From Micromonospora sp. WMMD882 (GTDB lineage: Bacteria; Actinomycetota; Actinomycetes; Mycobacteriales; Micromonosporaceae), in contig NZ_CP114903.1 in the NCBI RefSeq assembly GCF_027497255.1, positions 3,100,001 to 3,164,000 on the forward strand: a DNA stretch of 64,000 nucleotides, given 5' to 3'. Position 1 is the first letter of the stretch; the number at the start of each line of letters is the position of its first letter. The notes under the pieces were generated by a model that was not told the origin of the DNA, did not search any database, and worked only from the letters and a program-made list of their open reading frames with translations. Shown here one piece after another: positions 22,292-30,293 of this stretch. A program made the position numbers and the translations under genes.

Positions 22292-23158
22292 GTGAATGAA
22301 ACGGCTACCGTGGGGCCGGCGCCGGGTGACCGGCTGCTGGACCTGTTCCACGGTGTCCGGCTCACCCCGACCCAGCGGCGGATCGCCCAGTGTCTGGTGC
22401 GGCACGCCGCCACGGTGGCGTACCTCTCCGCCGCCGAGGTCGCCGAGCTGGCCGGGGTCAGTCAGCCGTCGGTGACCCGGTTCGCGGTGGCGCTCGGCCA
22501 CGACGGCTATCCCGCGCTGCGCCGCCGGCTGCGGGCGCTGACCGCGACCGGGTCGGCCGGGCCGACCCCGTCGACCGCCGGCGACAACGAGTTGCAGCGC
22601 GCCGTCCGGGCCGAGATCGGCAACCTGGACCGGCTGGCCGGGCAGCTCGCCGACCGGGACCGGATCGCCGCGGCCGGCCGCCTGCTCGCCGCCAGCCGGC
22701 CGCTGCCGGTGCTCGGGCTGCGCGCCGCCGCGCCGCTGGCCGCGTACTTCGCCTTCTTCGCCGCGAAGGTGCACCCGGACGTGCGGGTGCTCGACACCGG
22801 TGGCAGCCTGCTCGCCGACCGGCTCGACCAGGCCGCCGCCGCCGGGGCGGGGGCCCTGCTGGCCCTGGTGCTGCCCCGCTACCCCCGGGAGACCCTGGAC
22901 GCGCTGCGGGCGGCCCGCGAGGCCGGGCTGCGGGTGGTGGCGATCACCGACTCGCCGGTCAGCCCGGCGACCGAGCACGCCGACGTGGTGCTGCCCGCCG
23001 CGGTCGGCACCGACCTGGTCTTCGACCTGCACACCGCGCCGATGGCGCTGGCCATGGTGGTGCTCCAGGCGATCTGCGACGCCACGCCGGCCGAGACGCA
23101 GGCCCGACTGGAGGCGTTCGAGGCGTCCGCCGCCCGCCGGCAGGTGTTCCTCGGATGA
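22292..23158 (+). CDS. MurR/RpiR family regulator of histidine utilisation
   Basis: A 288-residue regulator: N-terminal HTH_6 (residues 20-80, LTPTQRRIAQCLVRHA, SAAEVAELAGVSQPSVTRFAVALG) and C-terminal SIS domain (about 120-265, PLPVLGLRAAAPLAAYF, VVAITDSPVSPATEHADVVL). SIS domains usually bind phosphosugars; here the neighbours are hut genes, so the ligand may be a histidine-pathway intermediate. The canonical GntR-type HutC is absent from the window. It starts leaderless and is followed by hutU after a 147-base repeat-rich gap. Confidence 0.88.
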   Translation: MNETATVGPAPGDRLLDLFHGVRLTPTQRRIAQCLVRHAATVAYLSAAEVAELAGVSQPSVTRFAVALGHDGYPALRRRLRALTATGSAGPTPSTAGDNELQRAVRAEIGNLDRLAGQLADRDRIAAAGRLLAASRPLPVLGLRAAAPLAAYFAFFAAKVHPDVRVLDTGGSLLADRLDQAAAAGAGALLALVLPRYPRETLDALRAAREAGLRVVAITDSPVSPATEHADVVLPAAVGTDLVFDLHTAPMALAMVVLQAICDATPAETQARLEAFEASAARRQVFLG

Positions 23159-23305: not shown

Positions 23306-24951
<1,646 letters not shown>

Positions 24952-24955
<4 letters not shown>

Positions 24956-26157
24956 GCAGCGCCGTGGTGGCGGACCGGTTCCGCGAGTTGTGGGACGAGA
25001 TCGCGCCGATCGGGCGGGACGCGCGCACCGGCGGCTACCTGCGGTACGCGCTGACCGAGCCGGAGCGCCGGCTGCGGGAGTGGTTCCGGGCGCAGGCGGA
25101 CCGGCGGGGCATGCCGGTCACCGACGACGGCAACGGCAACCTCTTCGCCCGCTGGGGCGACCCGGACGCCCCCGGGGCGGTGCTCACCGGCAGCCACTTC
25201 GACTCGGTGCCGCACGGCGGGGCGTACGACGGGCCGCTGGGCGTCGTCAGCGCCCTGCTCGCCGTGGACGAGCTGCGCGCCGCCGGGGTCACCCCGGCCC
25301 GACCGGTCGTGGTGGCCGCGTTCGTGGAGGAGGAGGGGGCCCGGTTCGGTGTGCCGTGTCTGGGGTCGCGGCTGCTCACCGGGGCGATCCCGGTCCAGCG
25401 GGCGGCCGGGCTGCGCGACGCCGACGGGGTGAGCTTCGCCGAGGCGCTCGGTGACCGCCCGGCGGGCGCCCGGCCGGAGCTGCTCGCCGGGTGCTCGGCG
25501 TTCGTGGAGCTGCACGTGGAGCAGGGGCGGGCGCTGGTCGACCGGGACGCGCCGGTCGGGGTGGCCACCGCGATCTGGCCGCACGGCCGCTGGCGGTTCA
25601 ACGTGACAGGCGAGGGCAACCACGCCGGCACCACCCGGATGGCCGACCGCCGCGACCCGATGCTGACCTGGGCGTTCACCGTCCTCGCCGCGAACAAGGA
25701 GGCCCGGCTGCGGGGCGCGCACGCCACCGTCGGGCGGATCCTGGTCGAGCCGAACGCGACGAACGCGGTCCCGTCCCGGGTGACCGGCTGGCTGGACGCC
25801 CGCGCCGCCGAGCCGGGCCCGCTCGCCGAGCTGGTCGAGGCGGTACGCGGCAAGGCCACCGAGCGGGCCCGCCGGGACGGCACCGAGGTCACCGTGACCG
25901 AGGAGTCGACCACCCCGCTCGTCGGTTTCGACGCGGAGCTGGGTCGCCGGTTGGCGGCGCTGCTGGACGCGCCGACCCTGCCCACCGCCGCCGGGCACGA
26001 CGCCGGGGTGCTGGCCGGGGCGCTGCCGACGGCGATGCTGTTCGTGCGCAACCCGACCGGGGTGTCGCACTCCCCCGCCGAGTCCGCCGGCGACGACGAC
26101 TGCGCCGCCGGGGTGACCGCCCTGGCCCGGGTGCTGGAGGAGCTGACGTGCCGGTGA
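24952..26157 (+). CDS. M20 amidohydrolase (allantoate/N-carbamoyl type) in hut operon
   Basis: A 401-residue di-metal hydrolase of the AllC/beta-ureidopropionase branch of peptidase M20. Metal ligands are His82 ([11 protein letters not shown]), Asp93 (AYDGPLG), Glu127/128 (FVEEEGARF), His188 (ELHVEQG) and a C-terminal His in GVSHSPAES. The lid/dimerisation domain has [11 protein letters not shown] and [11 protein letters not shown]. It sits between hutU and hutF with overlaps at both ends. HutF releases N-formimino-nitrogen to give N-formylglutamate, and no HutG deformylase is seen, so this enzyme may hydrolyse N-formyl-L-glutamate. Allantoate hydrolysis is the alternative, but no purine genes are near. 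Confidence 0.85.
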
Positions 26158-27509
26158 CCCGCTGGCTGGCCGAGCACGCCTGGCTGCCCGACCGCCCCGA
26201 GCCCACCCCGGACGTGCTGATCGAGACCGACGGCGGTCGGATCACCGCGGTCACCCCGCTGACCGGCCGCCGGCCGCCCACCGCCGGGGTCGAGGTGCTC
26301 GCCGACGCGGTACGGCTGCCCGGGCTGACCCTGCCCGGCCTGGCGAACGCCCACTCGCACGCCTTCCACCGGGCGTTGCGCGGGCGCACCCACGCCGGTC
26401 GGGGTGACTTCTGGAGCTGGCGGGACGCCATGTACGCGGTGGCCGACCGGCTCGACCCGGACACGTACCTGGCGTTGGCCCGGGCGGTCTACGCGGAGCT
26501 GGCGCTGGCCGGGGTGACGGTCGTCGGCGAGTTCCACTATTTGCACCACCGCCCGGACGGCGGCCGGTACGCCGACCCGAACGCGATGGGCGCGGCGCTT
26601 GTCGAGGCCGCCGCGCAGGCCGGCGTCCGGATCACCCTGCTGGACGCCTGCTACCTGACGGCGGGGGTGGACGGCGCGCCGCTGGTCGGGGCGCAGCGCC
26701 GCTTCGGTGACGGGGACGCGGACCGCTGGGCCGAGCGGGTCGACGGGTTCCGGCCGGCCGGCGGGCACGTCCGGGTCGGCGCGGCCGTGCACTCGGTGCG
26801 GGCGGTCCCGGCCGACCAGCTCGGCACGGTCGCCGGGTGGGCCCGCCGGCACGACGCCCCGCTGCACGTGCACCTGTCCGAGCAGCCGGCCGAGAACGAC
26901 GCCTGCCGGGCCGCGTACGGGCGGACGCCGGCCGGGTTGCTGGCCGAGCGCGGGGTGCTCGGGCCGACCGTCACGGCGGTGCACGCCACCCACCTGACCA
27001 GCGCCGACGTGGGTCTGCTCGGCGCCAGTGGCGCCGGGGTGTGCCTCTGCCCCACCACCGAACGGGACCTCGCCGACGGGATCGGCCCGGCCCGTCGGAT
27101 CGCCGACGCGGGCAGCCCGCTCAGCCTCGGCAGCGACAGTCACGCGGTGGTCGACCTGTTCGAGGAGGCCCGCGCGGTGGAGCTGGACGAGCGGCTGCGC
27201 ACCCGCCGACGTGGCCACTTCCCGCCGGTCGAGCTGCGGGACGCGGCGACCGTGGCCGGGCACGCCGCGCTGGGCTGGGACGACGCCGGCCGGCTCGCCC
27301 CCGGGGCGCGCGCCGACCTGGTCACCGTACGGCTGGACAGTCCCCGGACGGCCGGCGTACCGCCGGTGGGGGTGTTCTTCGCGGCCGGCGCGGCCGATGT
27401 CACGCAGGTGGTGGTGGACGGCCGGGTGGTGGTCCGCGACGGTCGGCACGTCGACGTCGACGTGCCGACCGCCCTCGCCGAAACGATCGAGGCGGTGCTG
27501 CACCGGTGA
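26148..27509 (+). CDS. hutF: Formimidoylglutamate deiminase
   Basis: A 453-residue amidohydrolase that turns N-formimino-L-glutamate into N-formyl-L-glutamate and ammonia. Zn motifs: GLANAHSHAFHRALRG (HxH with the HutF-type AFHR continuation), HVHLSEQPAENDAC, a mid-barrel His in AVHATHL, and catalytic Asp in LGSDSHAVVDLFEEAR. GTG 26148 is chosen for the GGAGGAG site 5 bases upstream; GTG 26154 is close by. It overlaps the M20 gene by 10 bases. Confidence 0.93.
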   Translation: MPVTRWLAEHAWLPDRPEPTPDVLIETDGGRITAVTPLTGRRPPTAGVEVLADAVRLPGLTLPGLANAHSHAFHRALRGRTHAGRGDFWSWRDAMYAVADRLDPDTYLALARAVYAELALAGVTVVGEFHYLHHRPDGGRYADPNAMGAALVEAAAQAGVRITLLDACYLTAGVDGAPLVGAQRRFGDGDADRWAERVDGFRPAGGHVRVGAAVHSVRAVPADQLGTVAGWARRHDAPLHVHLSEQPAENDACRAAYGRTPAGLLAERGVLGPTVTAVHATHLTSADVGLLGASGAGVCLCPTTERDLADGIGPARRIADAGSPLSLGSDSHAVVDLFEEARAVELDERLRTRRRGHFPPVELRDAATVAGHAALGWDDAGRLAPGARADLVTVRLDSPRTAGVPPVGVFFAAGAADVTQVVVDGRVVVRDGRHVDVDVPTALAETIEAVLHR

Positions 27510-27567: not shown

Positions 27568-28767
27568 GTGAACAGTCTGCTGGTGGACAACATCGGGGAG
27601 CTGGTCACGAACGTGGCCGGCAGCGGCGAGGGCGGCCCGTTGGGCATCCGCCGGCGGGCGGCGGTGCTGGTCGAGGAGGACCGGATCGCCTGGATCGGGC
27701 CCGCCGCGATCGCGCCGGCCGCCGCCCGCCGGATCGACGTCGACGGGGCGGCGGCGCTGCCCGGTTTCGTGGACAGCCACGCGCACCTGGTCTTCGCCGG
27801 GGACCGGGCCGCCGAGTTCGCCGCCCGGATGGCCGGTCAGCCGTACACCGGGGGCGGCATCCGGACCACTGTCGGCGCGACCCGGGCCGCCTCCGACGAC
27901 ACGCTGCGCGCCACCGTGCGCCGGCTCCGCGCGGAGGCGCTGCGCCAGGGCACCACCACCATCGAGATCAAGAGCGGGTACGGCCTCACTGTCGCCGACG
28001 AGGCCCGCTCGCTGCGGATCGCCGCCGAGGTGACCGGGGAGACCACCTTCCTCGGCGCGCACGTCGTGCCGACCGAGTACGCCGACCGGCCCGACGACTA
28101 CGTCGGCCTGGTCTGCGGGCCGATGCTGCGCGCCGCCGCCCCGTACGCGAAGTGGATCGACGTGTTCTGCGAGCGGGGCGCGTTCGACGTGGACCACGCG
28201 CGGGCCATCCTGGCCTGCGGTCAGGCGCTCGGGCTGGGCGTACGGGTGCACGCCAACCAGCTCGGGCCGGGGCCCGGGGTGCAGCTCGGGGTGGAGTTGG
28301 GGGCGGCCAGCGTTGACCACTGCACCCACCTCGACGACGCCGACGTCGAGGCGCTCGCCTCGACCGGGACCCCGGAAACCGGCACCGGCACGGTGGCCAC
28401 CCTGCTGCCCGGGGTGGAGTTCTCCACCCGGTCGCCGTACCCGGACGCGCGGCGGCTGCTCGACGCGGGCGTGACCGTGGCGCTGGCCACCGACTGCAAC
28501 CCCGGCTCGTCGTACACGTCGTCGATGCCGTTCTGCGTGGCGCTCGCCGTACGCGAGATGGGGATGACCCCGGCGGAGGCGGTGTGGGCCGCGACCGCCG
28601 GTGGCGCGCGGGCGTTGCGCCGTACCGACGTCGGGGTGCTGCGGGTCGGGGCGCGCGCCGACCTGACCATCCTCGACGCCCCGTCCCACCTGCACCTGGC
28701 CTACCGGCCGGGGGTGCCGCTGATCCGCCAGGTCCTGCACAACGGAGTGCCGACATGTCGACCGTGA
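27568..28767 (+). CDS. hutI: Imidazolonepropionase
   Basis: A 399-residue metal-dependent amidohydrolase that opens 4-imidazolone-5-propionate to N-formimino-L-glutamate. Motifs: [15 protein letters not shown] (HxH plus substrate Arg), [40 protein letters not shown] and [11 protein letters not shown] (catalytic Asp). The GTG start follows AAAGGCGG. Its end overlaps hutH by 13 bases. Confidence 0.96.
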
Positions 28768-30293
28768 CCGTCCGACCCACCGGAATCTCCGCCGCCGACG
28801 TGCTGGCGGTCGCCCGCGGCCCGGCCCGGGTCGTCCTCGACCCGGCGACGGTGGCGACGATGGCCGCCAGCCGGACGATCGTGGACGGCATCGAGGCCGC
28901 GGGCCGGCCCGTCTACGGGGTGTCCACCGGGTTCGGGGCGCTGGCGTCCACGTTCGTCGCGCCGGAGCGCCGGGCCGAGCTCCAGCACGCGCTGATCCGC
29001 TCGCACGCCGCCGGCATCGGCGCGCCGATGCCCCGCGAGGTGGTCCGGGCGATGATGCTGCTGCGGGTACGCTCGCTCGCCCTCGGCCGGTCCGGGGTGC
29101 GCCCGCTGCTCGCGCAGGCCCTGGTCGACCTGCTCAATTACGACGTCACGCCGTGGGTGCCGGAGCACGGCTCGCTCGGCGCCTCCGGTGACCTGGCGCC
29201 GCTGGCGCACTGCGCGCTGGCGCTGCTCGGCGAGGGCTGGACGCTCGGCCCGGACGGCGCGCGGGCGCCGGCCGCCGACGCGCTGCGCGCCGCCGGGCTG
29301 GCCCCGGTCGGGCTGGCCGCCAAGGAGGGACTGGCGTTGATCAACGGCACCGACGGCATGCTCGGCATGCTGCTGCTCGCCGCCCACGACGCCGCGCACC
29401 TGTTCACCATGGCGGACGTGACCGCCGCGCTGGCGATCGAGGCGATGCTCGGCTCGGAACGACCGTTCCTGCCGGAGCTGCACGCGATCCGGCCGCACCC
29501 CGGGCAGGCCGCCTCGGCGGCGAACATCCACCGGCTGCTCCAGGGCTCGACGGTGATGGACTCGCACCGCGACGACCTGGCGCACGCGGTGCAGGACGCC
29601 TACTCGATGCGCTGCGCGCCGCAGGTGGCCGGCGCGGCCCGGGACACCCTGGCCTTCGTCGAGCAGGTGGCCGCCCGGGAGCTGGTGTCCGTGGTGGACA
29701 ACCCGGTGGTGCTGCCGGACGGGAGGGTCGAGTCGACAGGCAACTTCCACGGCGCGCCGCTCGGCTTCGCCGCCGACTTCCTGGCCATCGCCGCGTCCGA
29801 GGTCGGCGCGATCGCCGAACGCCGGGTGGACCGGCTGCTCGACGTGACCCGGTCCCGGGACCTGCCGGCGTTCCTCTCTCCCGACGCCGGGGTGAACTCC
29901 GGGTTGATGATCGCCCAGTACACGGCGGCCGGGATCGTCGCGGAGAACCGCCGGCTGGCCGCGCCCGCCTCGGTGGACTCCCTGCCGACCAGCGGCATGC
30001 AGGAGGACCACGTGTCGATGGGCTGGGCGGCGACGAAGAAGCTGCGCACGGTGCTGGACAACCTGACCAGCCTGCTCGCCGTGGAGCTGCTCGCCGCGGT
30101 ACGCGGACTGCAACTGCGCGCCCCGCTGACCCCGTCCCCGGCCGGTCGGGCCGCGATCGCCGCGCTGGGCGGGGCGGCCGGGGAGCCCGGCCCGGACGTG
30201 TTCCTCGCCCCGGTGCTGGAAGCCGCCCGCGACGTGGTCCGCGGGCCGGGGCTGCGCGCCGCGATCGAACGCGAGCTCGGCCCGCTCGCCTGA
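28755..30293 (+). CDS. hutH: Histidine ammonia-lyase
   Basis: A 512-residue enzyme making urocanate and ammonia from L-histidine, the entry step. The MIO cofactor triad is Ala143-Ser144-Gly145 in [15 protein letters not shown]. The lid tyrosine lies in [10 protein letters not shown], and [14 protein letters not shown] and [10 protein letters not shown] are family blocks. It closes the operon hutU-M20-hutF-hutI-hutH; no histidine permease is linked. Confidence 0.96.

Follow-up and report, generated by a model that had tools for sequence, protein, structure and literature searches.

The M20-family amidohydrolase encoded between hutU and hutF in Micromonospora sp. WMMD882, here termed M20-A, probably is the working HutG (N-formylglutamate deformylase) of this bacterium. 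It also appears likely, on comparative grounds, that the HutG step of histidine degradation in actinobacteria is an exchangeable slot, which is occupied by M20-A, by a second M20 clade (M20-B) in one family, or by a peptide deformylase (PDF) paralogue taken from protein maturation; on the HutF tree, the PDF label changed three or more times. The idea that an M20 protein serves as the deformylase is old and comes from SEED; the comparative evidence for M20-A, notably the exchange with PDFs, is new.

The hut operon and the missing HutG

The window, a stretch of 64,000 nucleotides of the host genome, contains the gene order rpiR-hutU-M20-hutF-hutI-hutH (Table 1). The hut genes were assigned with NCBIfam profiles and their curated cut-offs, and hutU, hutF, hutI and hutH all exceed these, so that every other step from histidine to N-formylglutamate is present, as the original prediction had it. 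The M20 gene is intact, with 401 codons and a GTG start, and its reported overlap with both neighbours was confirmed: it shares a 4-base GTGA with the hutU stop at 24952-24955 and another with the hutF start at 26154-26157. In 63 of 80 related loci a relative of the RpiR-type regulator is likewise found upstream, in the same orientation.

Table 1. Features of the window, the host purine cluster and the hut-linked peptide deformylases (profile scores in bits, curated cut-offs in brackets)
Feature	Position	Strand	Evidence or remark
RpiR-type regulator (HTH_6 + SIS)	22292..23158	+	Pfam PF01418 47 bits, PF01380 25.4 bits; upstream of the hut operon
hutU, urocanate hydratase	23306..24955	+	TIGR01228 887 (375)
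M20-A amidohydrolase (holder of the HutG slot; putative N-formyl-L-glutamate deformylase)	24952..26157	+	NF006770 609 (372), TIGR01879 272 (204)
Clade signature H211-G212-R213	25582..25590	+	H 114/115, G 114/115, R 115/115 hutF-linked rows
Clade signature R366-N367-P368-T369-G370	26047..26061	+	just before metal ligand H373
hutF, formimidoylglutamate deiminase (product N-formylglutamate)	26154..27509	+	TIGR02022 464 (413)
hutI, imidazolonepropionase	27568..28767	+	TIGR01224 377 (298)
hutH, histidine ammonia-lyase	28755..30293	+	TIGR01225 625 (539)
Purine cluster	L234:7644-8816 to L235:3381 (genome 592643-608281)		M20 allantoate amidohydrolase, XdhC-like protein, urate oxidase, XDH-like subunit, allantoinase
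Hut-linked PDFs in hutF operons without M20-A	L166:6407-6982, L169:8291-8866, L171, L173, L175, L177, L179, L180, L165, L197		

No HutG had been seen in the window, and the same result was obtained genome-wide. In the host genome (one contig of 6.37 Mb, 99.25% complete), the best match to the HutG profile PF05013 reached 13.8 bits against a cut-off of 28.9, TIGR02017 gave zero matches at an E value of 10, and the arginase-type HutG profile TIGR01227 reached 163.7 against 229.15. The hutG elsewhere in the genome that had been named in advance as grounds for giving up the M20 assignment was thus not found above any curated cut-off. FTCD_N likewise stayed below its cut-off in the host genome (best 11.4 versus 27).

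Linkage of M20-A to hutF

Of the 80 closest loci from GTDB representative genomes, a biased sample in that they were picked by similarity, 79 have hutF downstream of M20-A. Linkage is more fairly judged from 326 genomes sampled evenly across the phylum, with counts that ignore kinship. M20-A exceeded its cut-off in 38 of these genomes, with a clear gap in score between 445 and 329 bits, and 36 of the 38 possess a hutF of at least 288 bits, located within 300 bases in 35 and at 1.3 kb in one. The two M20-A genomes without such a hutF (G198 and G237) belong to a side branch of the M20 tree, and one genome (G028) carries an extra M20-A copy away from hutF. The expectation that M20-hutF pairs would recur in actinobacteria lacking hutG is therefore borne out for the pairing and only partly for the lack of hutG: an unlinked PF05013 protein occurs in 15 of the 38 M20-A genomes and, within family f4, in 12 of 14. 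The arginase-type HutG was set aside as a candidate; it exceeded its cut-off in 2 of the 326 genomes (G214 and G008), both of which are without M20-A and without hutF.

Two M20-A genes from genomes without hutF have different surroundings. Close to that of locus L121 are a type III glutamine synthetase gene and an ORF that by eye resembles an ammonium transporter, and close to that of L130 are another such ORF and an amine-oxidase-like gene; these two M20-A proteins perhaps act on another N-acyl amino acid.

Peptide deformylases and a second M20 clade in the same position

Peptide deformylases are removers of N-formyl groups. Among 36 hutF loci (20 + 16) fetched from genomes in which no M20-A exceeds the cut-off, seven at first showed a PDF homologue in the gap beside hutF, two of them confirmed by Pfam scans (PF01327, 154 and 151 bits versus a cut-off of 22.8), and a tblastn screen added three more (L165, L177 and L197), giving 10 genomes in five families (f17, f30, f32, f35 and f43). 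In eight of these the gene separates hutU from hutF; in L171 it follows hutF, and in L165 it follows hutI. PF01327 is over its cut-off at all 10 hut places, the three catalytic motifs are present in all 10 proteins, and every one of these genomes has at least one further PDF. A family unrelated to M20-A thus fills the same place in other hutF operons. Within flanks of 6-7 kb, neither a PDF nor a PF05013 homologue was found at any of 118 M20-A loci.

The hut-linked PDFs form a separate group. An RYPYKP segment and a C-terminal TTW are found in 10 of 10 and are absent from all 21 other PDFs compared, which come from 15 genomes (L220, checked by eye, is without RYPYKP), and in the PDF tree the hut-linked proteins group at 99/99, apart from these 21; a smaller tree, built with a strict motif filter and 10 other PDFs, gave 92/88. 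The looser pattern RYP..P was rejected as unique to the group, as a similar segment occurs in the solved PDFs 1sv2 and 5t8z. A hut-PDF query matched 12 of the 326 genomes at an E value of 1e-30, and 11 copies carry RYPYKP, 10 of them in hut operons. A hut-type PDF of genome G108 (L248:3400-3957; 53% identity, RYPYKP) has no hut gene in the 12 kb fetched, and the weak hutF of this genome sits on another contig; G159 gave a weak match without RYPYKP. An ORF that by eye resembles phytanoyl-CoA dioxygenase lies between hutU and the hut-linked PDF in two operons (L179:8945-9766 and L180:5546-6400), and a similar stretch is found upstream of the PDF in L173, a possible hint of a further substrate.

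The third holder of the slot, M20-B, is a separate M20 clade seen in six hut operons of family f19. An M20-B query (L184) matched seven of the 326 genomes at an E value of 1e-70, six in hut operons and the seventh being G164. In the M20 tree, which includes 46 of 119 M20-A rows and whose deep branches are weak, M20-A and M20-B do not group as sisters, so that two recruitments are likely.

Taken over the 64 genomes whose hutF scores 288 bits or more, the slot is held by M20-A in 37 (counting G124, whose M20 is cut by a contig end), by a PDF in 10 and by M20-B in six, with none found in 11. Among these 11, G115, G184, G196, G215 and G224 lie at contig ends or on short contigs, and in G017 the contig stops just past hutI; five have flanks of at least 3 kb on each side and yet no candidate near hutF, which implies that the deformylation step can be unlinked. 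The tally leaves out 8 of 72 hutF genomes, which score at about 210-270 bits (G001, G032, G108, G150, G166, G189, G268 and G313), and none of these eight has M20-A or a hut-linked PDF beside hutF. Mapped onto the HutF tree, the PDF label has to change no fewer than three times along branches with strong support, a count that may mix gains and losses and in which rows with no holder or at contig ends were scored as not PDF. The PDF operon of G202 is sister to the M20-A operons of family f4 in this tree (100/95).

Sequence features of M20-A

The original prediction that the M20 enzyme has intact metal ligands and belongs to the hydantoinase/carbamoylase branch is upheld on both counts. H82, D93, E128, H188 and H373, which correspond to the metal ligands of the M20 family, and E127, presumably the catalytic base, are identical in all 115 hutF-linked rows, the window protein included; E127 aligns with a residue that is Ala in 4pxd. 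The protein exceeds the TIGR01879 cut-off (Table 1) and has the two-domain fold of that family, and its only Pfam matches at an E value of 0.001 are to Peptidase_M20 and M28, with none to the HutG family (PF05013/TIGR02017). HutG would carry out the same reaction at the same pathway step, but is unrelated to M20-A in sequence.

Among solved structures, the best sequence match (221 bits, 36% identity) is 3n5f, the L-N-carbamoylase of Geobacillus stearothermophilus, which we assume to be the same enzyme as the L-carbamoylase of the tandem reactions discussed below. It has the fold and metal ligands in common with the window protein, whereas the HGR, W280 and N367 signature is replaced by L-I-W, V and S. 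Escherichia coli AllC (1z2l, 4pxd) is 30% identical, and the window protein falls far under the AllC cut-off (TIGR03176, 191.8 bits versus 597.75). ErtE, from ergothioneine use, is by its NCBIfam name likewise an M20 enzyme acting on an N-acyl-L-glutamate, with a carbamoyl group in place of the formyl group proposed for M20-A; here too the window protein is below the cut-off (NF058540, 260 bits versus 520). The nearest named matches listed for it are Micromonospora proteins, at 89% identity.

Two signatures mark the clade (Table 1). Of the 21 other actinobacterial M20 rows used for comparison, none has H211 and eight have R213, and N367, present in all 115 hutF-linked rows, is replaced by S or C in all 21. 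M20-A members without an adjacent hutF (L084, L121, L130 and L134) carry the signature residues too, so that the signature is no proof of a hut function.

Proposed reaction and the earlier proposal

We propose that an M20 amidohydrolase with a dimetal site, from the hydantoinase/carbamoylase branch, became the N-formyl-L-glutamate deformylase M20-A, which would perform the last of the five steps of the histidine pathway in place of HutG. HutF, judged by the function of its family, would convert formiminoglutamate to N-formylglutamate and ammonia, and M20-A would next hydrolyse the formamide bond with a metal-activated water, E127 being the base, to give L-glutamate and formate, as its family membership suggests. 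The clade-specific residues H211 and R366-N367-P368, together with R213, are candidate readers of the glutamate side chain. That either M20-A or a peptide deformylase fills the slot favours hydrolysis of an N-formyl group over that of allantoate or a carbamoyl group, and this exchange with PDF paralogues makes the old deformylase idea testable again.

The same proposal was made in SEED, where a COG0624 protein associated with histidine catabolism was called "N-formylglutamate deformylase, alternative form" (Gerdes et al. 2011, case 20, PMC3223725). In that paper it stands among four invalidated predictions, the Streptomyces avermitilis protein having shown no deformylase activity; the passages on this protein are silent on its locus, on the metal of the assay and on any exchange with peptide deformylases. 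The negative result may reflect a wrong metal or the assay of a different paralogue, or the proposal may not hold for Streptomyces. With an L-carbamoylase of G. stearothermophilus coupled to a racemase, N-formyl amino acids are reported to be converted more efficiently than N-carbamoyl amino acids, and one reaction with the L-carbamoylase used CoCl2 (PMC7431475), which suggests that formamide chemistry would be allowed to M20-A. The original prediction of a non-orthologous HutG therefore draws support from the linkage in 36 of 38 genomes, the absence of a HutG over cut-off in the host genome and the PDF exchange in 10 operons; it is weakened by the published negative, and its novelty is forfeited to the SEED proposal. 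Among the PMC papers searched, none was found on hut-linked peptide deformylases.

If this assignment is correct, many records named allantoate amidohydrolase are misnamed, a missing step of histidine use is filled in Micromonospora, Streptomyces and their relatives, and a hypothesis abandoned after a single negative assay is reopened. The hut-linked PDFs would be an example of an enzyme of protein maturation diverted to the degradation of an amino acid, and the name "peptide deformylase" in their records would need to be changed.

Alternative functions of M20-A

Public records name M20-A an allantoate amidohydrolase, in which case shared nitrogen regulation could account for its place in a hut operon. 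The window protein passes NF006770, the model of that name, most named rows among the 120 matches listed for it bear this name, and R213 is common to it and the E. coli enzyme. Yet passing NF006770 is a property of the hut-linked clade itself, the AllC score is far too low, and the purine cluster of the host, which spans 16 kb and includes genes for urate oxidase and allantoinase, contains another M20, which passes NF006775 (514 versus 479). Moreover, the recurrent partner of M20-A is hutF, and one would not expect an allantoate hydrolase to be replaced by a peptide deformylase. With a separate M20 in the purine cluster and the AllC and ErtE cut-offs missed, we rejected this annotation as highly improbable. 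It is also unlikely that M20-A acts in the manner of ErtE on N-carbamoyl-L-glutamate, arising as a side product of imidazolonepropionate or ergothioneine. The nearest solved relatives are indeed carbamoylases, and ErtE, named an N-carbamyl-L-glutamate amidohydrolase in NCBIfam, is matched at 260 bits; nevertheless its cut-off is missed, and a carbamoyl role would both leave the N-formylglutamate made by HutF unprocessed in a genome without a HutG over cut-off and sit poorly with the exchange of the slot with peptide deformylases.

We give little credence to a further alternative, that an unlinked enzyme, for example a housekeeping PDF or an orphan member of PF05013, deformylates N-formylglutamate while M20-A does something else. 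The PF05013 proteins of 15 M20-A genomes, the negative assay of the S. avermitilis protein (PMC3223725), the six PDF homologues of the host genome and the 11 of 64 hutF genomes without a linked candidate speak for it. On the other hand, the host genome has no PF05013 protein over the cut-off, and a host PDF was rejected as the deformylase, since none of the six has the hut-type segment or matches the hut-PDF query at an E value of 1e-30. No hut gene was present in the fetched flanks of 10 PF05013 loci drawn from 29 genomes, a result that was repeated with a positive-control locus, and three actinobacterial PF05013 proteins, of which the one from family f4 (L095) was entered as the matched stretch only, scored 39-72 bits against a HutG cut-off of 278.75. 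On these grounds the orphan PF05013 proteins were rejected as the true HutG in general; in family f4 they could carry out the deformylation step in M20-A genomes. PF05013 occurs in 29 of the 326 genomes and is commoner in those with hutF (17 of 64 versus 12 of 262), mostly by way of family f4 and with kinship ignored. The host genome has six PF01327 places, none of hut type; each of the 14 further genomes searched has between one and three.

HutF beside the three slot holders

The closest solved relative of the window HutF is 3mdu, an N-formimino-L-glutamate iminohydrolase. Ten of 11 compared residues are the same in the window protein, and Q61 of 3mdu is His. The same 10 of 11 residues agree with Pseudomonas HutF beside all three slot holders. 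The exception, position 61, is either Gln or His, with His in 36 of 37 HutF proteins linked to M20-A and in 10 of 10 linked to a PDF, and Gln in six of six linked to M20-B. Divergent HutF-like proteins of family f10 (L185, L192 and L194; 28-30% identity) are encoded near hut genes and have His in place of the Arg that aligns with R209 of Pseudomonas HutF; they may act on a different substrate.
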